The position numbers and the translations under genes are program-made. DNA of 64,000 nucleotides. It comes from Asterias amurensis (taxonomy: Eukaryota > Echinodermata > Asteroidea > Forcipulatida > Asteriidae). The notes beneath the pieces were generated by a model that was given only the letters and a program-made list of their open reading frames with translations, searched no databases and had not been told where the DNA came from. This document shows positions 23,806 to 55,495 of this stretch, in pieces. The DNA lies in the NCBI RefSeq assembly GCF_032118995.1, contig NC_092651.1:13975285-14039284 (forward strand). The letters are read 5' to 3'. Every line of letters starts with the position of its first letter. Within the stretch, counting starts at the first letter, position 1.

Positions 23806-24048
23806 TAACACCATATAATAACAATATCTAAATGAGTTCACTTCCCGCCTATATTTCCCGCCTTCGTGCATCACCGCTGATCCACCGCCCAGTACTTAAG
23901 CAGCATGCAGCATCAGAGTCCAGCATTCTCCAGAAGACGATCAGAGCATACTGATCGAAACGTCGAGTTAATCCAACGGTTCTTTTCAGAACCACCCCAA
24001 CTCATTTAGAGATTGTTATTACATGGTGTTACCGCAAACTCTTCTATA
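23806..24048. repeat. TIR element with GCGGTAACACC tips, copy 1
   Basis: GAGTTTGCGGTAACACCAT and ATGGTGTTACCGCAAACTC are inverse tips. The interior has a GATCAG..CTGATC hairpin followed by GAAACGTCGAG. Related to 28985-29356. Confidence 0.7.
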
Positions 24049-29600: not shown

Positions 29601-32600
29601 CTTTGACACAACATTCAGTGTTTTGGATGAAATCATATCTCTGGAGGTTCATGACATCCTTTAAAAGGACAAAAAAACCTTGTGAACCAATTTCACTAGC
29701 TACTTGAAAACAAAGAGTCAACAAATTGATAAACTTTTTGCATACTACTCTTACTGCAGTGGGGATGGTCCAGGTAGAATAAGAAACAAATAGCTTCTGA
29801 AATACTTACGTGTGCTTAACAAGATGCTGATGATTTTGGCGATAAATTCCATGGGTGTGGAAGAAGACTTCTTGGCATCTTGCATCTGCCCAAATATGTC
29901 TTGATAAGAAGGAGGGGCCTCTGCATACCAAGAAAGAAAAACAAACAAATAAACTTAATTTAAAAAACAAGAGTTGGGAGATGTGTGTTTATACCACTGC
30001 TATATTTTTATCTTTATTTATTTGTTGTCAATATAAACCACAAGGGAACTGACTGGGTAAATTTGTAAATGACTTTTGGGGTTGAACAAAGAATTGACTA
30101 GAGTAGGATTCGAACCAACGACCTCCAGATTAACCTGCCGGCGCTCTACCAACTGAGCTATCTAGCCCTATATTGGCGGTGTCCCTATTTTGTCAATAGC
30201 TTTGTTCGGGGGTGCCAGTCAGAAGCCATACAACCGTTAGCTGCAGTGTAGCCAGGGATCCCTGGCTTTTCTGCTCGTTGAGCCACAAATTAGAGACACT
30301 GATCGCATGGGGGGTTGCCATGTGCAGCAACCTTATCTTTGCGGTGCACTAATGATACAGAAAACACACCAATGTGACATAGACTTATGACCTAAGAATT
30401 AATGTCAAGTTTCCTTTCCTCAAGGGCGACCTCCCCCCCCCCCAATGACAATGTACATTACGAATGTCACTGCTAATTGGACAGGAAATCCATTGGTTTC
30501 ACTCACCACCATGATGTTGACCGTTGACCTATTCACCCTAAAGCAATCCAAACTGCCATAAGCCCAAGTTTCCTTCTACCAAACGGCAACCCCACCTAAG
30601 TTGCAATTCTAACTAAAGTTACAGAACGGACACAAAGGTGCCTAGCCATTCATCCGGTCATAATCCAGACAACACAATGACAACACCCCTTCAGCCTATG
30701 GGGATTAGGGTCCAAGGTTAACAATATTAATTCTCATTATTACCAGAATTTTGTTTATTTACCATTGGCAATCATGTATCTTATCTTTAAGGGTCGTAAG
30801 GCCAAGACCTGCGATGGCCCTGTTTACTTTGGCATTTAGCACTTACAATACAGAATTGTGCACATAACGGGCCCTGTAAGCGCAGAATTAAGTGGTTAAC
30901 AGGGCCATGAAATTAGGCCCTGCTATGCAAGTATTGCCCTGGACTGGTGCTACAATGTCTATTAGTTTGTCCATTTTAAGCGAGTCTACTTACCTTTGGC
31001 AACATCTTCGTACCTTGGAGGTGGTGCTTCATTCTCTTTTGGAGATGAAATATTCACACTGGTCCCATAATCAGGGGGAGGGGGTAGATTGTTTGTAAGA
31101 CCCAATTCAGGATCTCCATTTACCTATGCAATGAAACACCAACAGAGGAAGTTTTACCATTGCTATCTCTTATAATTCGTCTGTTATCAGTCTATGTAAT
31201 TGATTTCATATTTTGATCAAACAAACCTTGCATAGGATGAAGAAGGGCGTTGTATTGAGCTTGACAACAGAATGTTGTTTCCAACAACATTTAAAAGCCA
31301 ATAATTTATAATGCACGGCCTTATCATCAACACTTTTGTTAATCAGCCTTTACAGATTGGTGTATTACATAAGTAGACAAATGTTTATTTAATCCCTTGA
31401 GGTTTGTGTGCAAAGTGCATACAGGACAATTCAACCCACAGAACTATCCTAATGTCTGACTCTGAAGTGGGAAGTCATGCACAATCTGCACGGTATAAAG
31501 TATACATAACATGGATGTGTGGGAGCAGACATACCCAATGAAACCAAGAACTTCACTCAGAGGTATCTGGGTGTTTTCACAGTGAGCACGTCATTGTTTC
31601 GTTTTCATGTAATAATAATAATATAATAACCAGTTTTTTTATATAGCGCTTTTCACACCCGAAGGGCGACTCAAAGCGCTTCCAACATTATTACCCCTGG
31701 TCAGAGGGCCTTAAATCATTCCTTATACCATCTCAGCTCCCTGGGGAGAATACAGCCTGTGCAACTAATAAATGCGCTACTCGACTTAATCAATCACAAG
31801 AACCATCTCTGCCCTCACAGGTACCCAGACTCTACTGAACAGAATCACAAGAGCTCGAGTTCTGTGCTCCGTTCCGCTCAGCCACAACACCCTATACGCA
31901 GGGTAAGCAGAAGCCCTTTATAAACAAAGGCAACAAACGTGCGTCTACATTGGAGGGGCAGGGTAAAGCTTAGTTAAAATGTGCTCTCAATCACATTACA
32001 CTCTGAATAAGATGTTCAAATCCTACTTGGCAACATTTGTTGTATCACGGTAAATAGATTGTGAATTTTTATTGGTCAAGAACCATTTAAGCAATGTGCT
32101 CAGGGGAACATGACTGATGTACCTTGACCATGCCCACCATTGTTTTCTGCAGCATATTTTTTCAATATAGTCAACAGTAAACAGAAAAGGCTGTTCTGCC
32201 AAATCTCTTTACTCCATAGTCGGTGTGTGCGCTGCAAAAAAAACTAAATCAGTCTGTAGCAATTGATTGTGTCGTTGTCCTTATTGCGTTGAAGTAAACC
32301 GTAAAAACGTTATTATGAGAATGTAGCATTGGCAATTAGAGGTTGGCCCAAATGGGGCTATCTGCGTACTCTTCTAGAAACTACATACTTCTAGAAACTT
32401 GGCCCCCCTACCTGCTTACCCCCCCCCTGAGCCCTAACTAAATGTTATGGATTCTTGAGGAATCGTGACCTCTACTCTAGCTCTAGCAGTCTAGTTGACA
32501 CAGCATAGGACGACCTGCTGGCTGGCAAGCTGTATAATTTTAGTAGTAACTGTACTGAATGACCCTAACCATCCGCTTATGGTATGAAGTAGTAGTTTTT

Positions 32601-35953: not shown

Positions 35954-38900
35954 ATGAAGATGGACATATTTGACGAGCACTATCACTGCGTTATTGTCAG
36001 TGTTGAAGGGATGACATGTGGGTCTTGTGTGAGAAACATCCAGGAGCAAGTGGGAGATGTGGAAGGAGTCCAGCATATAAAGGTTAGTGTAACTTCTGAT
36101 GCCGTATCCATATGCTCTGGATGCTAACTTCAATTAATGATTAAATCTTTCATTGAGCTCAATTTAATTAAATCTGAAGTTTAGTGAAGAAAATGAGTCT
36201 TGAAACCTGGCACCCAACCCAAAGTGTTGGACTCTTATTATGGTGGTTTACCTGGATTCATGACCAACTCTGACTAACAGGATCATGCAAAACTTCACAT
36301 TGAAGTCTTATATAATGGGTTTGGGGATTTCTTCTTGAACAGAACTTTCAGTTGAGGCCAGAAAATAACATTTCTTAAAAAGCAGCATTTAATTATGTGA
36401 CCAAAATACACACTTTAATCAGGTTTAAGTTCAAAATGATAACAAAAAATGTATCAAATTTATAAACAAATTCTTGGATGCAACAGTGTTTAAATACATT
36501 CTTGCTCACAAAGTGAGCACGATGATAGCAATAAAATGGATTGACCATGAGTCTAAAAAACAAAAATTAATACATTAATAAAATTAATAAAATTAACTAA
36601 TTAATATATAGTTTATTCACACTGGTTGGCCATTCCAGTGTATTAACACGAGATAAAAAGACTGGCTCTGTGAACTAGCAAATAAATGTGTCTTGATTTG
36701 ATGTGTCACAGAACAACAAATAATTTAATTTTCAATTCATGGCAAATGTGTAAAGTGGTTTTGACAATAAGTGATACTTTTAAATAATTGTAGGCTACTT
36801 AAAATGTTTATTATTCTCCTTTTTTACCAATACGAAAATAAATGTTGATTATATTGAATTGAATTGCTGATATTGAAAAATAACAACAATAAATATATTT
36901 TTATTAACCAAATCAAATTCACAAAAACCATCAAGATAAAACATTCTAGACAGTTCTAGAATTGCACAGTAGGGCTGTTTAAACCAAGATAAATGCCCAG
37001 TAGAAAGCTTTCCAAGGACCTTGTTTCAATAAGACATTTTCAAGTGAGATATCGCAAGTTACCATCTAATTTTTGAATTCCTCAGTCTATAGAGACAGTT
37101 GCTACATGTACATGTACGTATAGTCAACTGGTTTAGGCCAAGCTTTTGTATGACAGCAACCTCCAGATGAGGTTACCCTAACTACATGCAACAGCTTGCC
37201 CCAAATCATGATGTGACGTAACAACTTTAGAGTCTGATGAATGAGAGTTAATTAGTTATGACTAATGTTATCAAGCAAGTCATTGTATCATTATTCAAAT
37301 CTAACCCGCAAAAGGCCAAACTTCACCAAAACTTCGCATCCAGAGTGCCCCACAGTTTGAAATCATTCTGGGGAGAACCCTGGGTGCAACCAGGTGTAAA
37401 TCTCTTCGGAGGAGGGGTGTTGGCTTTGAGGGAACAATATTAACAACATTGACAATCAGTTACGGTGGCCACAGAAAGAATTGAGACCCCTGTACAGGAG
37501 CAGCTGTTTCACTGGGCTTTTACTAACACAGACCACAGTATATCTGTTTTTAGATCATGTATGATGAAATACAGTTTTTATTTAGATTGTTCCCTTGAAC
37601 GATGTCCTTGACGCCTGCCTGAGGCGAAGGCTAAGACGCAGGTGCACCATGCAAGAAAAACATTAATTATAACTCCACTGTGATTCTGAAAAAAATCCAT
37701 TATTTCCTGTGAGATAAAGGCAGTGTCTTGATCATTTTAATCAACTTAAAAGTTGATTGCAGCAAGAAATTGATTGAGATTTAACTAGTCATTTGTATTA
37801 GGCAGTATTATTGTCATTGTCAGGAGACTATAGCAATCTAGTCAAAGTGTTGATACTAAATTTATAGGGGGCCTATCTCTCGGGATAGCGACAATAATTA
37901 CAAGAAGTACCCATGATACGCTAATCTACTCTGCTTTAGGCATAATGTAAAAAGGTGTAGGAATGTGCAGGGCAGTGTCTTTTAGAACTAACTATCTCAA
38001 TCAGGGATAGTGACAATTATGAACCCTTTTTTTATAGAGGTATTGTAAGTTCAAAACTCTGTGAAAAGCAGTGCCATGAAATTGGGCCCAGAACTTGAGT
38101 CTGATGCACTAGCCCACTCGGCCACTGCATGTAGTGCCTCAAAACGTTATCAACCATTGTCAGTCGTCAACCATTAACAAAAATAGTTGGATAGATGTAA
38201 TAAAAAATAAAATTTGTGGTAATCTCTTATCTAGACTTTCAGAAAGGACTTTGAATGTCTCATTATGAATTGTAAAATTAATCAATTAAATTTAATATTG
38301 GCCCTGCATTCAGATAGTTTCATCCCCATATGTTAGCTTTTGCAACAGTAGAGAAGGTAGTGTATTAATTTCTTATTTGATAGAATATGGTGGAACATAA
38401 TCAAATGCCGATTTAAATATGGGATGCAGACACGCTATGTTTCTATAAATTTATCTTCAATTAACCTTTGCGAACAGCTTATAGCGCAATATGCAGAGTG
38501 GCTGATATGGACCAAGCAATAATATAACATCACACTGTTGTTGGTATGTAACGACTCATCAGAATTGAGGATTCTTGAAGATAAAAAGTAACTCTTGATT
38601 GAGATTGAGTTTTCTTAACTCTCAGGTTTCTCAATTGTTGTTGGTGTTTTTGTTGGCATTCAGCTACAAGCAGCTTTAAAAGTTACCAGTGAAAACAAAA
38701 GTTGTACCCTGCAATTGAAGCATACTTTTTCATCATTCATCCGTGCCTTTGTTTGTGTGTGGGGGTGGGTGGGCTAGGTGAGCTCACAAGAAGGAACTGG
38801 AGTATGCAAATGATCTAACAAGGAAATAGCGGTTCATAGAAATCATTTGATTTGATATTCTGTACACAAGGCAGAAAGGTGTTAAGGGCAAGCCATTTTG

Positions 38901-41900
38901 TTGCTTACATCCTGGTGGGACAAAAAGGTTTACATACAAAACAGGTAGGCCTAGAACATATTGTACACACAGTACTTCTGTGCATGCTGTATAACTTTGC
39001 ATCAAAATAGGGTCAACTGTAGACATTCTGGTTTATTTCACCAACAGATGGTTTATGTAGCTCTCAGATTTCGCATTGTTCTGAAAATGGCAATAGTGCA
39101 AAGTAAAAAACCTGTAAGTTTGAAACGGTATGAAGGCTTGTGCCCATTATGCGTCTTTATTATTATTATTGATTTTTTGCGATTACCAGCAAAAATGTAA
39201 CTGTACCAGTACAGGCTTATTCCAGTTTGTTGTGTGCACATTATTTTAACCATTTAAAATACATTTTAAATGTTTACAAATTTTAAACTTCTCTTTTACA
39301 GCATTTTTTACAAAGTGAAAAACATTCGATTGTTAATTCAGTACTTTAGGTGAAAAAAAGTCACCAACGCGCTTCCATTATTGATGTATAAATCACAAAT
39401 TACTGTACATTTTAAGTCACATTCATGAATGTAAATGTGTAAGTTCACACTCTGCATTTATTATGTGTGAGCTAAAATGTAATTAGTTGCACGTACGTAT
39501 TGACCTTCAATTTTTGTTTGGTTAATAATATGCTCTCAGCCTGGCTTATCTACCCTCCAGCTATTCACTAATAAATGCAGTCAACATAGTTGATGGAATT
39601 ATCACTTGAAAGTGAACTGAGGATTGTGGCTCAAATGTTTAATTAACGAAAGATTTACATTTATGTACCCAGCAATATTGTTATTCATCAGCAGATGGTT
39701 TGGTTCTGGGTTAATAATTAGAGTCCCATCCCGAGTTTTGTTTCATTTTTTGTTCATTTCATTTCTTTCTTGATTAAGCCAGTCAGTTTTTAGTGGAAGC
39801 TTTCTCCAATTTCAGATGGACTTGTCATGACTTATCTGATTGATACTAAAAATGAGTATGGAATTTTGATGGGGCATAATGTCACTGGAAGTTGTACAAA
39901 AGATACGTGTTATTGTGATGTCTTATGGAGTAAAAACAAGTTGTGTCTCAGGAGGTTTACATGTGGGTTTATTGTTTCTGATTATTGTTGTTCTTTTTTT
40001 TTTTTTACAGGTATCACTTGAAGAAAAACAAGCTCTCATAATCTTCGACCCGACAAAAACAAATCAAACAAAGCTGAGGGACAGAATCGACGACATGGGA
40101 TTTGAGGCTTCACTTCTAGACATGTCACTTCAGACCGGTGTCCAAATGACGGTCGTTAAGATTGAAGGGATGGCGTGTCAGTCTTGTGTCAAGTCTATTG
40201 AGGGAAGAATTGCCACTCTTAGCGGTGTTTGTGGGATAAGAGTTACCTTGGATGCAAAACGTGGTGAAATTTGGTACCAGCGGGTGGTCATAACACCGAA
40301 ACAACTATGCAGTGAAATAGAAGATATGGGTTTTGATGCTACAATTGAGGAGGACAACAAAATGGACAAATTAAAAGAAGTTGTGATTAACATCAGTGGG
40401 ATGACATGCAAGTCTTGTGTGAGATCTATTGAAGGGCAAATATCCGACATGGATGGTGTGGAGAAGATCCAAGTATCGCTAGAGGAGAAACTTGGGCGTA
40501 TACATTACATATCTTCAAAGGTCTCTGCTGAAACCCTCAGAGATGCCATTGATGATATGGGGTTCGAGGCCACTCTTAAAGACACTGGTGTTTCACTGAC
40601 ATCGGTTTCAATCCACGTTGAAGGAATGACCTGCAACTCCTGTGTACGCTCTATCGAAGGGATGATATCAACATTTGATGGTGTCAACAAAATTACTGTT
40701 TCTCTCGACAAGAAAGAAGCCATGATTGAGTTTGACTCTAAGAAGACCACCTCTGAAACATTACGGGTAGGAATTGAAGATATGGGGTTCGATGCCACTC
40801 TTCCTTCGAGCTTCTTATTGGTTGATTTGAGCAGCAGCTCAACTAAAACAGTCACCTTAGGGGTGAAGGGAATGACTTGTAATTCGTGCGTCCGAAACAT
40901 TGAAGGAATGATCTCGACCCAGCCCGGTGTGCAAGTTATCAAGGTATCCCTTGAGGAAGAAAATGCAACAATTACCTACACACCGTCTCAAACTAGCCCA
41001 GAGACTCTACGAGATGCTATCGATGATATGGGGTTTGAATGCTTTATTCCATCGGAAACTAAACGTGAGACCCGGTTTGAAATCGTCACCATTAATATCG
41101 TGGGGATGACCTGCAACTCGTGTGTGAAGTCCATTGAGGGGGAAATCGGACAGAAAGGCGGGGTGAGGTTGATTAAGGTCTCTCTTGCTAATAGTTCCGG
41201 GACTGTTGAGTATGATCCTGTAGTAGTGACGCCTAGCCAGCTGGTGGAAGCCATTGATGATATGGGGTTTGAGGCTTCCTTACAAGGTAAGAAGTTTGAT
41301 ATGGACCCAATTTGTTGATTGGATAGAAAAATGATTACTCAAAGTTCAATGTTTTAGAAACTAAAGTAAAACAAATACATGTTGGCATTTTTGTTTCAAA
41401 TTGAAATGTTATATTGAGAGTGTAGTTACTTTTGGTGACACTAAAGTTTTTATTGTTCAAAATTTGTTCAAGTACATACATAAAACATCTGTTTGTCAAC
41501 AACTGTTATCAACGCTTCAATGCGCCAAAAAAGACATTAACATTTTTGCTATAATATACGTGACTGAAAATAAACAAACAAAATTGAAAATATGGGTTTT
41601 AAGCAATCTCATTTAAACACCAATATAATGGCTAGAGCACTGGCTTGTTAACCCTGAGGTGGCAAAAACAAGTCCCACTCTAGTAAATGTTTCTTTGTTC
41701 ATCCCAAAAATAAATTTTAAGAAAACAGATTCATTGGCAGCTGTTTCCAAAGTTCTTAAGTGTGAAGATGACACCTCTCATCTGCAGGGGAAGGTTTTCA
41801 TAGCTGTTCATTGTAGATTTAGCAGGACAGCATACACATTGTGTAAACATACAATTGTGGGCTTAATTAGTTTTACAACATCTTTGCATAACAAAGTGCA

Positions 41901-44900
41901 GAGCAAATGGTTTTGTTTACCCAACAGTCACATATGAAAACTATGTGCACTTTCTTTTCATTATTTAACAATCAAAATAAAGGTGTACTTAAAACAAAGA
42001 AACACACCTATTTAGGCCCTACGCCTTCATAAATTAATAATTAGTATAATAATTTTAATTATATCAATAACCATTATTGCCCTGGTCATTTGGCCAATAA
42101 AATTCTTGCGATCAAATTCTCAGCTCCCTTGGGCTACAGCCCGGGCTACTGTGAAGGCTTTAAAGGCTTTTTCAAACACAATATGAACCTGTACTCGTGC
42201 ATATACCCATTTATACCCCTAGATAAAGAGAAGCAATAGTAAAACATCTTGCTTAAGGACCAGGATTTGAACCCACACCCCAATGACTTCACCACCTGAG
42301 CTTGAGTTCGGTGCAATAGACAGTCTCGCCATGACTCTCTACATTGTAGCTTATGAATTATAAAGTCAAATTCTGAAACCTTATAAATTGTTGTTTTGAT
42401 ATGACATCAATCAAACAGAGGCTCTTCCCAGTAAAACACTCATGCCTCCAAGACGGCAACAAGGTGCTCATGTGACCTTCAAGCCGGCCCAGACTGGAGA
42501 TGAGATGGCTATTGTAAGCTTGACGGACGGTGACATTGAGAAGTGCTATCTCCATGTTACTGGGATGACATGCAGCTCATGTGTGGCCCTCATTGAGAAC
42601 AAACTCGGAAAGAAGAAAGGTGAGATTCACACAAATTCATGTTCGCTATGTGCTTCACATTGTCATCTGGGATTAAATATGTCAGACTTTCATCGGAGTT
42701 TAGACTTTTTTATTAGACGGTTTTATGCCTGCTGGGGCCCAATTTCATAGAGCCGCTTGCTTTTAAAACTAAAAAATTAAATAGTTGAAAAGTAATTGTG
42801 CATCCCAGAAATATTCTGTGCATCCTCAAGAGACAGCAGAGTATACCGTTTGAAATGTTGAGACCACACAATTACTCTTTCCAGAGCCAACACTCGTCCC
42901 CAAAGAGATTTACACATAGTTGTACCCACAGGTCTACTAGTTATAGGTACATGACTCTCTGGGTTGCTGGCTCAACCCTCCCCTTAAAGAGATGTTAAAC
43001 ATACTTATATACTTGCAAGTTTACTAGTTATAGTTACTTCCTAGGGAGTGTCTCAAGACTCCTCCCTAAAGAGATTTTATACATAGTTATACTTGCGAGT
43101 TATAGTTACTTCTTAGGTAGCATCTTAACACTACCCCCAAAAGAGATTTATACATGGCTACATTGCCGTTTGACCTGCAAGTTTACTAGTTACAGTAACA
43201 TCCAAGGCTTCCCAAAAGAAATTTACACTTGGGTAATATACTTCCCAACAGAACATGTGTTTGTTGACAAATATTCCTTCAACAAATATTTTACTTTTCT
43301 GATAGGTATAAAATCAGTCATGGTTGCCCTGATGGCCCAGAAAGCTGAGGTGACCTTCGACTCTTGCCATTTGACCCCAAGTGAGATTGCCACCATGGTG
43401 GATGACATGGGATTTGGTGCCACGATCATGGAAGATCAAGACAAAAGAAACCAAGAGGGTTTGCTGGAATTACATGTAGGTGACATCTTAATTCCAACTT
43501 TTCAATATCATCAACTTTTGAAGGATGAATGCATAATTATGCCAGCCTACAATGATGTTGTGGTGAATGCATCTACAGTACACAGCCAACCCTCCTTCTG
43601 TCGGACTATTTAATACTATTGATTTGAATGATAAACAAACTTTGCTAGCCTGCAGCATATGACATTATGTGTTGAAACAATCTAAATAGTACACAGTAAA
43701 AACAAATATTTTGATAATTATATACCCTACAATTTTTCATATTTGTTTGTATTTATTTTATCTTAATGAGACAGATTTCTGGTATGACCTGCGCATCTTG
43801 TGTTTCCTTAATCGAGTCGTCCCTCATCAGAAAACCAGGCATCAAGTCTGCTTCGGTGGCCCTAGCAACCTCTAGAGGGCGCTTTGAGTTTGAACCGTCA
43901 GTTACAGGACCAAGGGATATTATTAAAGCTATCGAGGTACTTAGAAATATTAATAATATAAAATAATAATATTGAAGTCTAATATTGCGCACATATCTAC
44001 CAATGAGGTACTCCAGGTGCTTAGTATATACATTTTTACAGAGAGATATAGGTTATTGAAGTTATGAATTCTGAGAACAAACTATTTAGCACCTCGTAGG
44101 GGTTTACAAGGTGCTACGGCCCATTCAAATGGATACCTTTAGAATTCAAATACAATCATCATTTTAAATTTAACATTGTTTTTTAAAATGAACTGTGTAG
44201 ATGTTTTTTCTTGTTTTTATTTGAGTCCTATAGACAATTTTCCGGTCTCAGACAAGCTCTGCAGTCTTTTGGATTTTCGCCCCAATTTTGAGCCCTGAAA
44301 TATTGGACTGAAAAAATAGAAAACTGCTTGCAGATTGGGACAAGCAGAGCAAATTGTATACTGGACATTAAGTGGCCCTTTGTGGAGTTCTTATTTGTGT
44401 TTGTTTATCCACGTTTACATTTGTTTTGTTTAAGGATGCTGGTTTTGAGGCATGTCTGATCACTGGCAATAACAGGGATAAAAGTGCAGCTTTGGATCAT
44501 TCCGATACCATCAAAAGGTGAGTTGGAGAGAAAAACATTGTTTGGGTTTTAGGGGAATGGAGAATGTATGTGTGCTAGTTGGGGAAAAAACATTGTTATT
44601 GTTGGGGTGGTTGGGGAGTGGATGGAAACACTTCGTTAAAAATGCTTTATATTTGCTTTCGGGTGAAACTTATTTACCAAAGTTCACATGAAAAAGTGTG
44701 TCAAAAAAAAATTAAATTCCATTATGATTTTTTAAAACTTTGTTTTATTATTGCAGATGGCGTCGTTCCTTCCTATTCTCTTTGGTCTTTGGTCTGCCTG
44801 TATTTTGTATGATGTTATATGACATCATAGCCCATCCCATACATGCCTGTATATTTCCAGGCTTATCACTTCACAATCTCCTGCTCTTTGGTTTCTGCAC

Positions 44901-47900
44901 TCCGATACAGGTAAAAATTGGGGAGTTTTCTTTCTACTTTTCACTTCAAAGTTTCATAATGTTTATCAACAAAAGAGACAAGTTGTAAAGAAAGAGATGT
45001 TGAGAAACTCCTGATCCCATTTACACTAGATCCAGAATGGCGGATCAGATCGAGCCTTGGAACTGAGCAGGTTCTTGCCAAGTGTACCTTGACCTTGCAT
45101 ACCAAACACACTACACTCAACACATGTGTATTTCACTGCACGAATGTATCTACTTATTAGTTTGAACAATCTTTCAAACATTATTTGTCAACCCAGGTGT
45201 TTGGAGGCCGTTACTTCTACATCCAAGCCTATAAAGCTATGAAACATGGTGCAGCCAACATGGACGTCTTGATCGTATTGGCAACCTCTGTCTCCTATCT
45301 CTACTCTGTCACTGTGCTTCTCATTGCCATCTTAGTGGGAGCGACCACAAGCCCAAGGACATTCTTTGATGCTCCTCCCATGCTATATATCTTTGTAACA
45401 TTAGGGAGATGGATGGAACATGTTGCCAAGGTGAGTTTTGTTCTTACAGACCTTTGATGGGAAAGAGGGTTGTAATGTTGATCCCAACCCGTCACCAACA
45501 AGATTATCAATACACTTCTGCTTTCTTTCTAATAAAGACAATGACAGGCAGAAGCTCCAGCCCAAATGTGACAAGAATACTCCATTATTAAGGGGCTTAT
45601 GGCTATCTTGTACAGATAGAGAGTAGCATCAGGAAGTAAGAACTTCTGAGCTCGATATAGACAACCAACTCGCATGGTAGCTCTTCTTGCAATGCCTGTG
45701 ATATACCTCTCCCAGCTGGTGCAGCATGAGTGGAGAAGTCAAGTCCAAAAGCAGGAACCCTCTTCTGTGAGATCTTACAACATATCAAATAAACTAACTG
45801 GTTACTCATGTTACCAGACATATCTGCACATTTTAAATTTATTTTTCTCTCTTGCCACCAGGGCAAGACTTCTGAGGCCCTGACCAAATTGATGTCAATG
45901 CAAGCCACTGAGGCTCGTCTGATAAACTATGACGATCTCGGTCGCATAGAGAAGGAGACATTGATTGATTTAGACCTCCTGCAGAGGAATGACAAGGTGA
46001 AGGTCCTGCCCGGAGAGAAGATCCCAGTGGATGGGGTCGTAGTTGAGGGGTCGTCCATGGTGGATGAGTCTCTGATTACGGGAGAGTCCATGCCGGTCAC
46101 CAAGAAAATTGGTGAGGTTTTAATTTTTTTGCTAGAATAGATATCCAAAAAAATTAAACAAGAAAAACCTAAATGCCTATAAACGAGAAAACCAGAGACA
46201 AAAGAGAAAAAAAGGACAACAAGATGACAAAGAACTAGACAATACCAACCAGATGTCTTGGTCAGTTGCAGACGTTGGCACAGACATAAATCATGGGGGT
46301 AATATGGAGGATGTACCAGGGGTGAGAGTCACTGCTGACAAACAAAATATGGAACTCTGATGTAATTGTTAGGAGGTGTGATGAAATAATGGCAATTCCA
46401 CCTTTTTGTACCCCCTAGAGTTACACATTGTAAGGAGCTGTGATTTCAGGATTTCTTTTCAATAAAGCCAACATTGTTTCACCCTCGGACAACAGCAGAT
46501 TTGAATCCTTGAATACTAATATTTCTTTTGACACCAAAGTTTTTCCCACCATTTTCATATTCTTGTTTATTTTCCTTTGGTCTGCTGTCTTTGTTAAGAC
46601 ATTTTCATTCGGGGGTTAATTTTTTACAATTCCAGAGAGCACGGTGATCGGAGGCACCATTAATCAGAATGGTGTGTTGCTGATTAAGGCCACCCATGTT
46701 GGTGCAGATTCAGCACTGTCTCATATTGTCAAACTGGTAGAGGAGGCACAAACATCTAAGGTAGGTGTTATGATAATCTATTAAAAAAAGGTGCCTTTCC
46801 TAAATTCCATATTACACTGGAAACAAAACAGCTACAGATTACATTGGAACAACACAGAGGCATTTTCACTTTATGTTTTGTAAGCTACACCACATATTAA
46901 CACTGGAATTTTAACAGTAAATCACTTTGAACAATTCTAAATTTTATAATGTATTTTTCAAGTTATCACTTCAAATTTTGAGGTTCGTTATCCAGCTAAT
47001 TTTAAGCCGTCATAAATAAACAAAAACTATACTCTGATTTGTTGATAGTCACAGAGAAAAAGACAGTTTTGTAACAGTACAATATTTAAAATTTGTTTCC
47101 CAATGCAGGCGCCTATTCAGAAGTTAGCTGATCGCATTGCTGGAGTCTTTGTACCCGGTATTGTTATCATCACCCTTATCACTCTGGTAGCACATGTTGT
47201 GACGGGATATAACAACCCTGACATGGTTCATCCGACATTCCTCTTAAATGTAAGTTCAGTATATTTCTACAAATTAATTGCTGTGTTAGGGCTATTGTAT
47301 TGCAATGAACCAAAACTGTCCTCTTAAAAAACAACAGCGTTGGCTGAGACTAGCAGGGCACTCATACAGATACATCAAAGAACCTGTTTCTCAGCTTATC
47401 ACCTGGCCACCAAAACATGGAAGGAGAAATAGGGGATGAGGGAAGGTCAGCTATACAGCTGTAGTTGCCGGGGACACCAGGGTGTTTCCAACTGATCTCC
47501 TCAACTTAATGAGGGCTAGACAAGAATGGGCAAATCTCAACAAGATTTTGACCTCAGTGGACTAGAGAGAGAGAGAGAGAGAGAGAGACAGAGGGCTATT
47601 GTACTCATGACAACGTCCTTATCGAATGACTTTGGCTAAGGTTATGACCCTTTGCCTCAGTGACAATGTTGAAGAATAGACCTTGGCATCAGTCATGCCA
47701 TAGTCACTGCCAAAACCGTTATTTCAGTGGATGATTTATTTCTTTACTCGAATACTCCATGTCACAAATGTACTCGCTCCTGAGTTCTTACTCCAAATGA
47801 GTGCATCAGGAAATTGAAATTGAATCCAAAACATTTTATTATGTTGGCATCTCAATAATGAGCACTTTGATATTATTAATAAAACGGACCATTTTGAACC

Positions 47901-50900
47901 GATAAGCTATAATGGCATATTATTCCTTCTTCTTGACCAAGAGACTTCTAATTAATGTCTCTCTATCAAATTATTTCGGATCCAGAAAAACCACAACATG
48001 ACCAACACCCAGATGGTGTGGCAGTACTCCTTCCAATGTGCAATATCTGTCCTGTCTATTGCCTGCCCATGTGCCCTGGGTCTTGCCACCCCTACTGCCG
48101 TCATGGTGGGGACCGGGGTTGGGGCAATCAACGGAATCTTAATCAAAGGAGGGGGACCTCTGGAGATCGCACACAAGGTGAGAGAAACTATTATTTGGGT
48201 TTTCACACATAATTTCAATAAAGAAGTGGGACTTTTCAAAACGCTGAAGAAGATAGCCCTGTCAAAAAACATGAGTTCAATACATGCTCCAAAATATTTG
48301 TCTATATACAATGTCCATTGTCATTCTTAAAAGTTGTGGGGCATGTTGTGGCCGAGTGGTCAAGCATACACACTGGACTCAAGCTCAGGTGTTTCTGACC
48401 AGCGCAGTGTGGGCTCGAGTCCCAGTCTTGACACTTGAGCAAGAAACCATTTTGTTTTGTCCTTCAAATGAAACATTAAGCCATTAGTTCTGTGTAATGT
48501 TCAAGGCGTGTTAAAGAACCCAGTATACTTATCATTCATAGAGAAGGGGTTCAACCCAGTGTTTTCTGGTATGGTTGGCTGCAGATTGCGCCAAAGGACC
48601 TTGTTTAAAACCATTGCTAGGTGCTATTTAAATAAATGGGTTTTATATTTCAAAGATAGCTCCGCATTCTTTGTAGAAAAACAATGAGAGCTTTGAGACA
48701 CAGTCGGGTTTGATAAAGCCCTAAATAAGAACTGCGATATACAAGAACTACACAATATACAATTAAAACTGCAATAAAAATTCCATGACACATCAAATCC
48801 GTCAATGAAAGAAAACAATTTTCTCGATTGCAATTGCCCAGATAAAGACGGTAGTGTTTGATAAGACTGGGACTATCACCCAGGGAGCTCCTAGAGTCAT
48901 CAGGGTCCTTCTCTTCCTCCCTGAGTCCCTCTGCTCTCAGCAGAAGCTGGTTGCTCTGGCCGGCTCGGCTGAAGCTAACAGTGAACACCCTATCGGAGCA
49001 GCCATTACCAAGTTTGCAAAGGAGGTAAGCATAACATTTCTTTGTTGCGTTCGTCGTCATTGTCAAATCATGTGTGACTTAAAAATACATGAATTACATG
49101 CTTTGATTTACATGAAAAAGTTCCATGTAAAGAAATTTGATGTTGAGTTAATCTCAATAGACCATGCAAGTCTGGCATGTATCAGAACCGAGAAAACAAC
49201 TTGAACAAAGATTATATTAGTCTATACTTTCTCCGAATCCTGTGCAATCAATTCCACTGGCAAACTACTTTAGTGGTATTTGAACTTGTGACCTTTACCA
49301 CTAGATCACAGAGATTGCCCAATAGCTAGCGGCAGTTTGAATGCTATATTTTAATAGATTTTATTAATTTTATAGATTTTATCTGCATTTTTGACATCCT
49401 TTTTCAGATGTTTCATTGTGACATGCTGGCCAAGTGTTCAGAGTTTCTGTCCATCTCAGGATGTGGTCTGAAGTGTAACGTTCACTCATCGGAGGTGGAG
49501 CAGCTACTAATGAAGGCAACCAATTTTGACATTACGTCAGAGGTGGAGAATGGCAGCCTTATGGTTGAGATTGATCGTCTGGTGGTGGACGTGCTGGACA
49601 GTGGTCCGCCGGTCATTCCACTCAGTGAAAAGGGTAAGATTTGACAAATGGGTCGGCCCTGTTGTGTCTCTTGTCTGAACAGAATCTCCGTTTTCACACT
49701 ACAAAGCCAATTCCCATGAAATAAAACTCAAGGAAAGGGAGTATTAACCCCACCTTAAACCTATGTTTGATTCACACTTTATACAATGGTCTCGGGGCAA
49801 ATTAACACTCGGTGTACTAACTCTTGGTCTCGGGGAAAATTAACACTCGGTATACTAACTCTGGGTTATTTTCCATAACCCTACACAAAACCAGGTGTAG
49901 GTTTGCCCAGAAAATGCCTTTTTTTCTGTGAGTTTGCATGGGTAAGCAACTCAAGTGTGAAAAGGTCTGCCAAGTTTTCCTAAGAATTCACAGGAAATTT
50001 CTGTAGTGTATCAGGGTCTAATTCGTTCTCTACATAGAACAGGTCACCCATTCAGTACAAAAAAGATGTAAAGAAGTCATTTTTATTTGTATACTACATA
50101 CATACCAAGGTCTTTCCTGAGTCTCAAAAAAATCCACAGGCATAACAATGTCATTATTCTTTTCAGTAAAACAAATGTCTTTTCCTACAGAACAACTGCC
50201 TTCCAACCTAAAACTTCCAGGAAAGGGTGCTCAAGACAAGATACTGATTGGCAATCGGGAATGGATGAAGAGGAATTTCTGTGATGTGACATTTGAAATT
50301 GACTGCCAAATGAAAGACCATGAAGAGAGGGGTCAAACTGCTGTGCTCGTTGCTGTAAATGGTAACTTCACCGTCACACTTTATCAAAGAAAATCCACTG
50401 TGCTATTATTATTAGTAGTTGACCAAGAATTATACATGACTGAGGTCATTTGATAGTGCTTGAAGCTTTCAACTCTCCAGTCTTTATACTTAACCAAAAT
50501 CAAACCATTGTACTTATTATTGTTAACAGTTATTGACAAAGATATTGATTGTGACCCTCAGAGTCAGATCAGAGTGTTTGTAACTGTTTACAAGGCACAT
50601 GAACAAAGATAAACTCTTTTTAAGACAAGTTTTTAACATAAGAAATTATGAGACTCATTAAAGTATCACGCTCAAAATAAGGGTTGGGCAAACCTCTTTT
50701 CTTACATCCCATTCGAAGGACACAGCAATATTGGTACAGTGTCTTGCTTAAGGTTCAAATGTCAAGACTGGGACTTTCCCCCACACTCTGCTGATCATGA
50801 ACACCAGAGCTTGTGCACTTGACTGGTCCGCTAAGACAAGCCACTTGTATAAAAGTGTAATGGCATGGAAAAGCTGGTGCTTTTCAGATGAAGTTAATCT

Positions 50901-53900
50901 TTGCCATGCACTGAATCAACCCCTATACCATAATTAGATAATATCTCAATTCCTCTGTGATATATGCAGATGTGATAGCTGGTATGATCGTTGTAGCTGA
51001 TGCAGTCAAACCAGAGGCGGCATTAGCCGTGTATATTCTCAAGAAGATGAAACTTCACACAGTACTGCTGACTGGAGACAACCGCAAGACTGCCCAGGCT
51101 ATCGCTGGACAAGTAAGAAGTTAAAATGAATAGTTTTAAGAAGCAACTGTTGTCATTAAATCAGATGGAAACTCAAGATGGGTTTTCACAGCATGCCTTT
51201 TTCTTGCACAGTACGTTATTCAGCATGAAAGAACACCTGCAGCCTTTAGTGTATGCAACATAAGAAAACCTGATTTAATTACCAGGCGTACCTCGGCAAT
51301 TGTAGATTAATCTTATCCAAAATACATCCTGAGCATACAATGTGTATCAAGCATTGGTGTTGGGTAAAACCAAAAAACAAATTTAACGTTACATTCTTGA
51401 ACTGTGTTTTCAATCAGTTTTTTACATCACAGTTGACTGTTTTTGCCTATACATGTAGGTTGGCATCGGGCAAGTGTTTGCAGAGGTCCTACCGCAGAAC
51501 AAAGTGGATAAAATCAGAGAATTACAACAGCAGAAGCAAATCGTGGCCATGGTTGGCGATGGTATTAATGATTCCCCAGCGTTAGCTCAGGCTGACATAG
51601 GAATGGCAATTGGTACAGGAACGGACGTAGCTATAGAGGCAGCTAATGTGGTGCTAATCAAGGTACTCCTATTGTTCTGCTTTCAGATTCCTTTTTCAAA
51701 CGGTGTTATCAAACCTGATGCATCTTGGAGATGATGGAGGCAATGCCATGACAAGACTGTATGCTTCGTTTTTTAAAAGGGCAAGGGCACCAAGGCAATG
51801 ACCAGGGTTCGTTGCCTCCTTGAAGTATCAGGCCTACCCTAAATAGTAGTACTAATAATAAAAACGAAGAATGACACATGTGTTTGTTATGTTACAAACA
51901 CTGGGGATTCGATTGGTGTAAAAAAAAAAAAAAAAAATAGCATTTGATATAAATGTTTAGTTTGGTCGAAAAACCCTACTGGAACCTTAACTACGGAATC
52001 GGGGATCGCTGTAAACAAGTAAATTAACCCCCTGCTAAAATATAGGATTCAAACTGCCCCTAGCTACCCGGCAATCTCGGTGGTCTAGGTGGTGAGACAC
52101 TGCTCTAGAATTGCAAAGGTCATGGGTTTGAGTCCCACCCGAGTAATATGCCTGTGATTTTGTTCACAGAGCTCGGGAAAGTACTGAGTATATAGTGCTA
52201 ACACACATCGGTGTATATGGGTAAAACCAAAAATTAATTTTCTTTATCCCCGATGCAAATTTCCATCTATTAAACTACCTTTTGTTCTCTCTTTATTTTC
52301 AGGATAATTTACTGGATGTCCCAACAGCCATCCATCTTTCCCATAAGACTGTACAGCGGATTAGATTCAATCTTGTCTTTGCTTTATTCTACAACATCAT
52401 TGCCATACCAATCGCTGCAGGTAAATAACTCTCTTCACTTTAAACACCATGCCTCCATTTCAGTACGTTACCAAGACGGAACCATGCCAATACATTATTT
52501 TGTAGTACCTGGGTGAGAGTTCATAACTCCATTAGAGAGGGTTCGATTCCCAGTTGTAACACTTGTGTTTTTGACTATAAATGCATCTTCTATCCAGGGG
52601 CAAATGGGTACATGTGATGGCAGAGATGGTTCTTGTGATTAATTTAGCTTGTAGCACTAGGGAGCTGAGATTGTTTAAGGAATGACGTTAGTGGTCCAGT
52701 GATATGGGGTAATAATGTTGTAGTGGCATGAGCATCACTAGGTGACTATTTTTAAAGCTATACAAGAAGCCACTATTACTATCGTCCTTATAGACCATGC
52801 GATACTGCAAATACCAAATTAGATCCATTACCTCAAAATGTACTTTAAAATAATTTTGTTTTTTTAATGATGTTTCCAGGTGCTTTTATGAGTTTTGGTC
52901 TTGCCCTACCACCATGGATGGCTGCGGCTGCCATGGCCATGTCTAGTGTCTCAGTCGTCAGTTCATCACTTCTACTTAAGTTGTAAGTTGCCGAAAATAC
53001 ATGTTTTGTTTTTACCCAATATACAAGTCTTTCGCATTCAAATGTAAATATATGTTGACCAAACCAACAGCGGACAAGCCGCCAGTTACATTCTGAGATC
53101 CCAGATTCCCAGCATACCATAGAATATTGTTGCCCGTGGCATACGACCGAGGTTCTGCAAAACTTGGCAAGTGCCTACTCATATTTTCTCACCAAATCCT
53201 GTGATTATTATTAGAACCTTTCCTTGTTCAAGTCAGAGTGTTATTGTGGCAATGATTTCAAAGAAAAATGGTTACTCTGAAAGTAAAAAAATATTCAGTA
53301 AAAAATACCATGGGTGGGCACAGAATGTTTTTGTTTCAGAATTCTGACTCGAAGCAATTAAAGCACAGGGGTGTCATCCAGCTCACTGCCCTCATTTAGA
53401 AGACAATTTGTCAAAGTAAATTCTGGTTTGTTTTAGCATTTATGTTTATGTTAACATGGGGAATTTTCAACGTCCTTCTGTAAAACCATTTAGGTCCAAA
53501 GTAGGTCAAATCTTGGGGTCCTTTTCTGGGTTATTTGTACAAACTGCTGGTGTTTGCAATGGTCTCTGAGGAGCTTAGCTTGTCAACGAGTGAGACACTA
53601 TACAGACCTTTGATTAATTAAGGTTTTGGGGGAAGAAAAAATATAAGAAATCTCCCAAAGAACCATATGAAATGACACTTTCAGTTTATCTATATTCACT
53701 TGAGGACTTCATTTCCCCCCTCAGGCATACAAGTGACCTTAGACAATGATGGTGGCAGTGTGTTAAATCAATTAAGAGTTTTTAGGGGAAGAATTGGATA
53801 TTTTTTTAAAGGAGCTGTTGATTTAACTATTTTAAGTTAAAAGTGTTAGGGTTGGAGTTGGAAGTAAATCTCCAGAGGACTTGAAGAAGTGCTCTTCCTA

Positions 53901-55495
53901 TTAGCAGGATAATGAGTAAAGCAGTGTTTAAATTCAGACTAATTATGAGAACTAAGGGAAGAGAGTAATTAACCCTCCTAGGCCTGGTAACATTTTGAAC
54001 CAAGATGACTAGACACTCAAGCAAACCGTTTGAAACTGTTCAACTGCACCGGGTGTATAGCTTCAAAATGCAAGTCTCACATACATGTACATGTAAACAT
54101 ACAAATGTGCATTCAGATATCAAATGGCAGAAAAGCGTAATTATCATTCATAGTTACAAAACCAATGCGGACGTCGCTTCAAAAAACAAAGTCCAAACCA
54201 TAAGAGATTAAAGGGAAATCCTTGACGTACTGTCTGGATGGGTATAAGCATTCAAACTGGGAGTTATAACAAAAGGGATAATAGGGTTCCCCGTAAAATG
54301 AACATCCGCAGTTGGAAAGAATGTTCAAAACTAAAGAAAGCTGCTTCTAAAGAAACTAGTGTCCAAAAAATAGAGGGACAGTAGGAAGGTAAGAAGTGGG
54401 GGGGGGGGGTGGAGAGGGGGTAAGAAGTCATATAAAATACCTTTTTGACGAACATCCCTATGCTGTCAAGCCAAGTCTCCTACATGCGCTAATACAATCA
54501 GTGAGGGGTAAAATGGTCACCAGGGGCAAAGTGGGATTTATATGGGATTGACTCATTACTATTTGGGCGTCTTGGGGGAGGGTAACTTATTTAATGAAGA
54601 TGAACTGAAGCTCCCCGAAACATGACAGTTGGGGAATTCCCTGTGCACATGACTCAACTCCCACTAAGGAGATTGTTTCTCCTTTGAGTCGAACATGACT
54701 TCTTTTTGGGAGTTGTGAGGGGGTTGTTATTCATTAGAAACAAAATACAAAATGCTCTTCTTGGCAGCCAGAGAACTTTTAGAGACCCGTCGGCCAAGAT
54801 TCATTAAAACAAAACAAAAACCAGAAAGTTTTGATTTCCTGTGGGCCTTTCTGATTTTCTTCCTGTGAGAAACTGATTGGATCAATATATTGCTATTTTT
54901 GATCGGTCTGAGGAAGTTGTCGATGGGATGAATGAGACACTGAACAAGCGAATTCATCATTAGGTTGTGACAAAAGTAATCGTGCTGGGATAGCACTTAT
55001 TTGAAACGAACAGAATTATTATTATTTTTTTAGCCTTTGAGAAGACTTTGCTAGTGGTCGAAGCATCAGGCCATTAGCAATTTGTTGCATTTATACCATC
55101 TTTTTGGTTGGTAAGCAGTTTGCAACAGCTAATTCTATTTTCACAATTTAAATAAGTGTTTGCTTTAATTTGACATGATCCTAGCCGCTTAGTCTCATTT
55201 GAAAACGCCAATATGGATATGTCTAAATTAATTCGCTTTCTGTTTTTGTTATTTTATGTTTAGTTACCGTAAACCTGATTACGAAAAAATGGCTGAGAAA
55301 GACATGGCTAGTATCCGGAGCAGCTCAGGGATGTACTTCGGAAACGGAAACACAAAGACTCACAAGAGGGATTTGGAGATGGACGAAATGGCCTCACAGA
55401 GTATGCTGAAACGACTACTCACAAAAAACAAACCAACTCAGAAGGACAAGGGAATGAGCATGCATCTCTTGAGCGAGTCAGATGAAGAAGAGTAA
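35954..55495 (+). CDS. ATP7: ATP7-type copper-transporting P1B ATPase with eight metal-binding domains
   Basis: Twenty coding exons give 1,498 residues with no break: 35954-36082, 40011-41286, 42419-42619, 43306-43475, 43775-43936, 44435-44517, 44757-44910, 45197-45430, 45862-46111, 46636-46760, 47109-47249, 47986-48177, 48842-49024, 49408-49633, 50191-50361, 50970-51112, 51459-51662, 52303-52420, 52880-52982, 55264-55495. Eight ferredoxin-like metal-binding domains have CxxC at residues 22, 99, 176, 251, 333, 411, 520 and 598. Then come TM1-TM4 (exons 7-8), the actuator TGES (876-879), the CPC copper site (1002-1004), phosphorylated Asp1046 in DKTGT, SEHP (1086-1089), TGDN (1267), GDGIND (1313-1318), NLVFALFYN in TM7 and a [13 protein letters not shown]8. 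The tail ends [11 protein letters not shown], where LL may be a trafficking signal. It pumps Cu(I) into the secretory lumen or out of the cell. Length fits human ATP7A/ATP7B (about 1,465-1,500), though those have six domains. The start could lie further upstream (see 34232-34315). Confidence 0.97.
36083..40010 (+). other. ATP7 intron 1 (within MBD1)
   Basis: A 3.9-kb intron that splits metal-binding domain 1 after its IKVSL-type strand. It holds A+T-rich DNA, a tail-like AATAAATGTTG motif (36838), a diverged GCCATGAAATTGGGCCCAG repeat (about 38070) and no exon I can support. Confidence 0.7.
42063..42330 (+). repeat. SINE-like repeat, diverged
   Basis: TCAGCTCCCTTGGGCTACAG resembles the 31607 family; the tail has ACCAGGATTTGAACCC, a degraded B-box-like end. 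ATP7 intron 2. Confidence 0.45.
42895..43235 (+). repeat. Degenerate tandem repeat, about four units of ~80 bp
   Basis: Units carry CCCAAAGAGATTTATACATA, then GCAAGTTTACTAGTTATAGT and ACTTCCTAGGGAG. Lies in ATP7 intron 3, ending about 70 bp before exon 4. Confidence 0.7.
47336..47565 (+). mobile_element. LINE 3' ORF fragment
   Basis: One frame reads [30 protein letters not shown], then after one stop [20 protein letters not shown] to a terminal stop. This matches the usual C-terminal layout of many non-LTR retrotransposon polymerases (RLRWLGH, GRRxRGR, RDxWR). A 5'-truncated relic in ATP7 intron 11, followed by a (GA)n tract at 47564-47588. Confidence 0.65.
48335..48602 (+). repeat. tRNA(Leu/Ser)-like SINE
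   Basis: TGGCCGAGTGGTCAAGC (A box) and GGGCTCGAGTCCCAG (B box) begin the element, followed by CTTGACACTTGAGCAAGAAAC and a body ending near GCGCCAAAGGACC. A diverged inverse copy lies at 50730-50865. ATP7 intron 12. Confidence 0.7.
49788..49865 (+). repeat. ~40-bp tandem duplication
   Basis: GGTCTCGGGG..AATTAACACTCGGT.TACTAACTCT occurs twice in a row, in ATP7 intron 14. Confidence 0.7.
50730..50865 (-). repeat. tRNA-like SINE, inverse diverged copy
   Basis: On the minus strand: GACCAGTCAAGTGCACAAGC, CAGAGTGTGGG, AAGTCCCAGTCTTGACA. Matches the order seen at 48335-48450. Confidence 0.6.
52070..52235 (+). repeat. tRNA-like SINE, second type
   Basis: TGGTCTAGGTGGTGAGACAC and GGGTTTGAGTCCCACC have tRNA A- and B-box layout; the body runs through GAGCTCGGGAAAGTACTGAG. 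A diverged partial copy is at 35520-35600. ATP7 intron 17. Confidence 0.6.
52560..52735 (-). repeat. SINE-like element, inverse copy of the 31607 family
   Basis: On the minus strand it reads CATTATTACCCCATATCACT, ATCTCAGCTCCCTAG and ACAAGAACCATCTCTGCCAT. ATP7 intron 18. Confidence 0.6.
52983..55263 (+). other. ATP7 intron 19
   Basis: A 2.3-kb last intron separating TM8 from the cytosolic tail exon. Apart from a short G run (54400) I see no repeat or exon. Confidence 0.7.

Follow-up and report, generated by a model that had tools for sequence, protein, structure and literature searches.

The question raised by this locus is how many metal-binding domains the N-terminal tail of an ATP7-type copper ATPase may carry, and whether a number above the vertebrate six speaks of gain in one lineage or of loss in another. 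The window, as the whole stretch of DNA analysed is called here, comprises 64,000 nucleotides of the asteroid echinoderm Asterias amurensis (assembly GCF_032118995.1, contig NC_092651.1, positions 13,975,285 to 14,039,284 of the forward strand), and it holds an ATP7 gene with eight HMA domains, termed D1 to D8 from the N-terminus. Domain number and identity in this tail are thought to set the copper sensitivity and trafficking of the pumps affected in Menkes and Wilson disease (ATP7A and ATP7B). The array in this intact gene is ancient, and on comparison with these vertebrate proteins we consider it likely that the ancestor shared with vertebrates had about seven domains, that ATP7A and ATP7B have each disabled a different member, and that the present lineage has about one more.

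Published counts set the scale. Three metal-binding domains are given for C. elegans, four for Drosophila, six for Danio, Xenopus and human, and seven for the amphioxus protein BRAFLDRAFT_63720, and domain number is said to rise generally towards higher organisms (PMC3308323). Loss within vertebrates has been suggested before, because a predicted zebrafish ATP7B was noted to have only four sites (PMC3308323). An earlier sequence-only reading of this DNA had expected nematode and insect proteins to have fewer domains, and the figures of three and four agree with it. Eight exceeds all of these counts, by one only, and is a modest extension of the known range; among the matches listed by an open-access literature search, judged by titles and the beginnings of abstracts, there was no ATP7 with eight metal-binding domains.

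An intact copper ATPase gene

Rebuilt from splice sites and reading frame, the gene occupies the + strand with 20 coding exons and encodes 1498 amino acids, from a start at 35954 to a stop codon whose last base is 55495. Its 19 introns are without exception GT-AG, with each junction keeping the frame, and the window (G+C 38.4%) contains no N. The elements of the gene, located by the gene model, Pfam and motifs, are as follows.

35954..36082, + strand: coding exon 1, with the start codon and the first half of HMA domain D1 (CxxC at amino acid 22); GMTCGSC at 36008-36028, donor gttagt
40011..41286, + strand: coding exon 2, 1276 nt long, with the remaining half of D1 followed by all of D2-D6 (gene model, Pfam)
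40149-40346, + strand: D2, within exon 2
40380-40577, + strand: D3, within exon 2
40605-40802, + strand: D4, within exon 2
40851-41048, + strand: D5, within exon 2
41085-41282, + strand: D6, within exon 2
42419..42619, + strand: coding exon 3, linker between D6 and D7 and first half of D7; GMTCSSC at 42562-42582
43306..43475, + strand: coding exon 4, remainder of D7 and beginning of D8 (gene model)
43775..43936, + strand: coding exon 5, bulk of D8; GMTCASC at 43781-43801
44435..44517, + strand: coding exon 6, last part of D8 (DAGFEACL, finishing near 44458), then the linker that leads into the membrane domain (gene model)
44757..55495, + strand: coding exons 7-20, the rest of the ATPase with its membrane, actuator, phosphorylation and nucleotide parts and its C-terminus (motifs, Pfam)

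ATP7 proteins carry CPC in the membrane domain, DKTGT, TGE, GDGxND, an ATP-binding motif of SEHPL type and, in the last membrane helix, MxxSS, and the translation contains CPC, TGE, DKTGT, GDGIND, SEHPI (with I for L) and MAMSS. Pfam finds E1-E2_ATPase (E 4e-46) and Hydrolase (E 1.4e-33) on the core. In a PDB search with the full-length protein the best solved relatives are a chain of 7si3, which we take to be Xenopus ATP7B (1255.5 bits), and human ATP7B (1222.6 bits), both at E=0, while HMA4 and bacterial CopA score below the ATP7B structures. These likenesses mark it as an intact ATP7 gene, assigned from sequence to the P1B copper(I) ATPases.

The start codon had to be chosen. The frame is open back to 35924 and there is an acceptor-like site with its end 14 bases upstream of the start, and the N-terminus could be longer by a further exon on that side. 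As modelled, only 18 residues precede the first GMTC, and unlike in ATP7B there is no FAFDNVGYE-type apical signal among them. Removing exon 2 whole leads to a frameshift and an early stop; skipping of the entire exon is therefore not a simple in-frame isoform and was ruled out on that ground.

Eight complete HMA domains

The spliced protein contains exactly eight CxxC motifs, at residues 22, 99, 176, 251, 333, 411, 520 and 598, each inside G-M-[TA]-C-x-S-C, with successive distances of 77, 77, 75, 82, 78, 109 and 78 residues. The Pfam HMA model recognises eight stretches, with an E of 4.5e-111 for the whole protein and 363.7 bits where the cut-off is 24.8, and the two domains that were scanned singly also exceed this cut-off (D2 with 42.7 bits, D7 with 52.4). 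D1 to D8 align without internal gaps, and 13 of the 71 columns are invariant, both cysteines included. The pattern is far beyond chance, and with eight domains the gene departs from the six-domain type of vertebrate ATP7A and ATP7B.

The sequence-only reading had described an ATP7 with these eight CxxC residues in the interval 35954-43936, every domain being a complete GMxCxxC...DDMGFEA unit. Its identification of the gene is upheld by the ATPase motifs, Pfam domains and PDB relatives, its eight motifs stand in the spliced model, and its start is retained, but 43936 is the end of coding exon 5, with D8 finishing in exon 6. The domains are indeed complete, although the closing motif varies (DDMGFEA in D1, D3 and D6; EDMGFDA in D2 and D4; DDMGFEC in D5; DDMGFGA in D7; EDAGFEA in D8) and the metal motif of D2 is GMACQSC.

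A separate observation concerns the linker between D6 and D7 (42419-42541), which gives a faint partial HMA match of 4.9 bits, with 2 of 2000 shuffles as good, and of 3.8 bits on a second profile, with 3 of 2000 as good. It is possibly a remnant of another half domain, or a chance match among the seven stretches tested.

Age of the domain copies

Tandem repeats are a usual source of assembly error, and a collapsed or repeated assembly, or two genes merged in one model, might give an inflated count. The copies themselves make this highly improbable. Among the 28 domain pairs nucleotide identity is 41-62%, third codon positions agree at 23-42%, and the longest exact word common to a pair is 7-20 nt; the domain duplications are old and saturated at third positions. 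Exon 2 is moreover a single open frame, all junctions are in frame, there is one ATPase core, and no N occurs in the window. An assembly artefact was rejected on the divergence of the copies, and the same age renders a recent expansion at the level of the species unlikely.

The sequence-only reading had regarded eight as a lineage expansion over six. A true expansion would have added two domains, by duplication inside exon 2, to a six-domain ancestor such as vertebrates retain. The layout of exon 2 speaks for this, with D2-D6 head to tail in one exon as part of a direct repeat family of 6 copies at a spacing of 225-246 nt, and D3 and D4 are the most alike of all pairs (61% protein, 62% nucleotide and 39% third-position identity). 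Against it stand the seven domains of amphioxus (PMC3308323) and the comparison with vertebrate domains given below.

Correspondence with vertebrate domains

Single-domain PDB searches were run for four of the eight domains (D1, D3, D5 and D6), with domain numbers of the ATP7A and ATP7B chains as we presume them to be. D1 is nearest to ATP7A domain 1 (78.6 bits, against 60.2 for the next single-domain chain of another domain) and D6 to ATP7A domain 4 (86.9 bits), a match not unique to D6, because D3 and D5 also give ATP7A domain 4 as their best single-domain chain (72.7 and 80.9 bits). The intron inside D1 falls between IK and VSLEEK, and ATP7A domain 1 has IK-VSLEEK at the same point; with the K of this motif taken to be codon 40, the intron appears to be common to D1 and ATP7A domain 1, where it is the exon 2/3 boundary. 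Exon 3 of ATP7A begins at c.121, i.e. after codon 40 (PMC4562349).

A tree of 26 domains (eight from the window and six each from human ATP7A, human ATP7B and Xenopus ATP7B) over 66 columns places D1 with ATP7A domain 1 (support 76), D2 with domain 1 of ATP7B from both species (93), D5 with domain 3 (64) and D6 with ATP7A domain 4 (73). D7 falls within the clade of domain 5 (95) and D8 within that of domain 6 (82), and by this grouping D7 and D8 are shown to go with the membrane-proximal domains 5 and 6 of the vertebrate proteins. As a control, the tree recovers the vertebrate counterparts of domains 2, 3, 5 and 6 but not those of domain 4. Twelve constrained trees were compared by the approximately unbiased (AU) and Shimodaira-Hasegawa (SH) tests, and AU narrowly excludes a clade of D1 with both vertebrate first domains (p=0.041). 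The pairing of D1 and D2 with different first domains suggests that domain 1 of ATP7A and domain 1 of ATP7B are not counterparts.

The extra domain would be one of D3, D4 and D5; AU accepts both D3 with vertebrate domain 2 (p=0.193) and D4 with domain 2 (p=0.404). It likewise accepts a D3+D4 clade (p=0.657) and a D3+D4+D5 clade (p=0.491), which would fit duplication inside exon 2. Against such an expansion, the best tree joins D1 and D2 to different vertebrate first domains, and the single clade of D1 with both first domains is excluded by AU, though not by SH.

The window protein is like human ATP7A in the D1 intron site, in the closeness of D1 and D6 to domains 1 and 4 and in its short N-terminus, but ATP7A has six working domains and, in its presumed letters, a degenerate HMA-like stretch without CxxC at the place of D2. 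Human and Xenopus ATP7B are the best full-length matches and share the grouping of D2 with their domain 1; they differ in having six domains and an N-terminal extension with the FAFDNVGYE signal where the window protein has D1. Amphioxus BRAFLDRAFT_63720, set beside it by published count only, also has more than six domains but one fewer than here, and C. elegans CUA-1 and Drosophila ATP7 are likewise invertebrate copper ATPases, with three and four (PMC3308323).

A probable degenerate domain in ATP7A

If D2 predates the parting of ATP7A and ATP7B, a place for it is to be expected in ATP7A. In the presumed human sequence 163 residues separate the CxxC motifs of ATP7A domains 1 and 2, and in the window protein those of D1 and D3 are 154 apart. 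Searched against all of Pfam, the linker between these two ATP7A domains has HMA as its sole match (E 0.0037, 18.1 bits), and in two separate runs, on a window-only profile and on a profile without ATP7A, none of 2000 shuffles reached its score, while three other ATP7A linkers gave no HMA match with the local profiles. The part of human ATP7A at the place of D2 thus has the look of a dead HMA domain, devoid of CxxC. The linker is matched to D2 by position only, its sequence not being closest to D2, and an assignment to D2 by sequence was unsupported (score 16, against 44-49 for others). Among the literature matches listed no paper is visibly on a degenerate seventh ATP7A domain, which cannot on that account be called unreported; UniProt or PROSITE may list seven HMA domains for ATP7A.

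Loss, gain and the ancestral number

Three readings are to be weighed, a lineage expansion among them, and the comparison as a whole leans towards vertebrate loss plus about one gain. On this view the ancestor shared with vertebrates would have had about seven domains, arranged as D1, D2, D3, D4 or D5, D6, D7, D8; after the vertebrate gene duplication the second domain would have decayed in ATP7A and the first would have been lost from ATP7B; and the lineage of the window would have acquired about one additional domain between D3 and D6. In view of the seven amphioxus domains and the apparent degenerate ATP7A domain, the lineage may on balance have gained a single domain, or no domain at all should eight be the ancestral number. 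Of the expansion over six, what stands is that eight exceeds the reported counts; an expansion as such is not shown, given amphioxus with seven, the saturated copies and the apparent dead domain in ATP7A (presumed letters), and we hold it to be unlikely.

That eight was the ancestral deuterostome number, with chordates losing one domain and each vertebrate paralogue a further, different one, is doubtful, if a little less so. In its favour, all repeats, D3 and D4 among them, are saturated at third positions and no pair is visibly young, but a single lineage with eight is in hand, and saturation cannot date events past its own limit.

Several results weigh against the reading of about seven ancestral domains with complementary losses. 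The ATP7A linker, at 18.1 bits, lies below the Pfam HMA cut-off of 24.8, and on the window-only profile one shuffle reached 10.6 against its 10.7; the linker scores 16 with D2, 44 with D1, and 49 with each of ATP7B domains 1 and 6. For four of the six human ATP7A domains, as well as for this linker, the sequence letters are presumed. Five deep nodes of the tree are weak (17-44) on its 66 columns, and domain 4 of ATP7A and of ATP7B, counterparts by position, are split as well, a control that fails and because of which the separation of the two first domains alone proves little. A grouping of ATP7A domain 1 with ATP7B domain 1 is nearly excluded only (AU p=0.055), AU accepts D1 with ATP7B domain 1 (p=0.117) and D2 with ATP7A domain 1 (p=0.111), and SH excludes none of the 12 constrained trees.

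A possible trace of D1 in ATP7B

If the first domain was lost from ATP7B, its N-terminus may retain something of it. This region carries an apical-targeting signal, F37AFDNVGYE45, before the first domain (PMC3308323; the signal is named too in PMC7403968). In phmmer searches the alignment of D2 with ATP7B domain 1 ran on leftwards unprompted, from window residue 68/69, in both human and Xenopus ATP7B, and the extension pairs the end of D1 with FDNVGYEGGL (human) and FDNRGYEGSP (Xenopus). In either N-terminus the D1 end finds its best match on the signal stretch, and with D1 alone this match is equalled by 16 (human) and 71 (Xenopus) of 20000 shuffles. From this motif to the next GM there are 27 residues in human ATP7B, 27 in the window protein and 28 in Xenopus. 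When this spacing is used to fix the register, no human shuffle of 20000 equals the score of a 10-mer that was picked after the match had been seen, and 3, 20 and 28 of 20000 equal the windows 69-89, 60-89 and 44-89, on the human piece only. The human and Xenopus results are not independent, since the two proteins are related. Intron 1 of ATP7B probably comes after codon 17 and would have phase 0, as does the D1 intron, although this did not appear among the literature matches listed.

Other figures count against a remnant of D1. With a D1-D6 profile the match is equalled by 166 (human) and 359 (Xenopus) of 20000 shuffles, with all non-ATP7B rows by 695 and 1064, and in free pairwise local alignment of the D1 end 156 and 109 of 5000 shuffles are as good; hidden Markov model searches with Pfam and local profiles find no HMA match in the ATP7B N-terminus. 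The signal as a stump of D1 is suggestive, a lead and no result.

We put forward only tentatively, at somewhat less than even chances, the fuller proposal that the array keeps the very domains that vertebrates broke. In ATP7A the ancestral second domain would persist, between the present domains 1 and 2, as a dead HMA fold; ATP7B would have lost the first exon-half of D1 together with its copper site, replaced since, and the remaining half would have become an N-terminal regulatory tail in which FAFDNVGYE is a fossil of the terminal strand IDDMGFEA of D1.

Neighbouring features

Upstream of ATP7 three similar open frames form a tandem array on the - strand, with the common motif CPVEPxIPxYxxVxGS and no Pfam match.

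7686-8129, - strand: open frame with the motif
16108-16368, - strand: open frame with the motif
27458-27766, - strand: open frame with the motif

We take these frames to be TMEM272-like. If they are, the neighbourhood may be conserved since before vertebrates, as TMEM272 adjoins or is near ATP7B in the chicken and cat gene lists (PMC10976558, PMC10969784).

Structured RNA matches were also seen. At 23973-24019 on the + strand is a histone 3' untranslated region stem-loop (35.6 bits against an Rfam cut-off of 34), and none of five core-histone protein motifs (H3, H4, H2A and two of H2B) was found in the six frames of the window. Intron 17 of ATP7 contains a weak tRNA-Ser-like match (52074-52146, + strand, 30.5 bits, E 0.023), perhaps a tRNA-derived mobile element, and the - strand has a better match, of 51.9 bits to tRNA-Asn, at 30095-30167.

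Implications for copper sensing

In vertebrates Atox1 delivers copper to the N-terminal tail, the far domains of which are regulatory and inhibitory; transport reportedly requires at least one of domains 5 and 6, although one cited study found ATP7A active with all sites mutated (PMC3308323, PMC9484656). By extension from these proteins, an Atox1-like chaperone would hand Cu(I) to the CxxC sites of the window protein. From their correspondence with vertebrate domains, D7 and D8 would pass Cu(I) towards the CPC membrane site and D1-D6 would sense it, as a copper-responsive inhibitory tail that loading loosens from the ATPase core. With all eight sites intact the tail is predicted to carry up to eight Cu(I), and more domains would mean more sites and a more graded response, with the chemistry of transport unchanged.

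With a long array that is fully intact it becomes possible to ask which vertebrate domain is the counterpart of which, and if the first domains of ATP7A and ATP7B are not counterparts, this matters whenever results on one protein are carried across to the other. What has been described as a general increase in domain number (PMC3308323) becomes a testable scenario of loss. Were the fuller proposal true, the six plus six domains of the vertebrate pumps would be the outcome of complementary decay of one larger copper-sensing tail.

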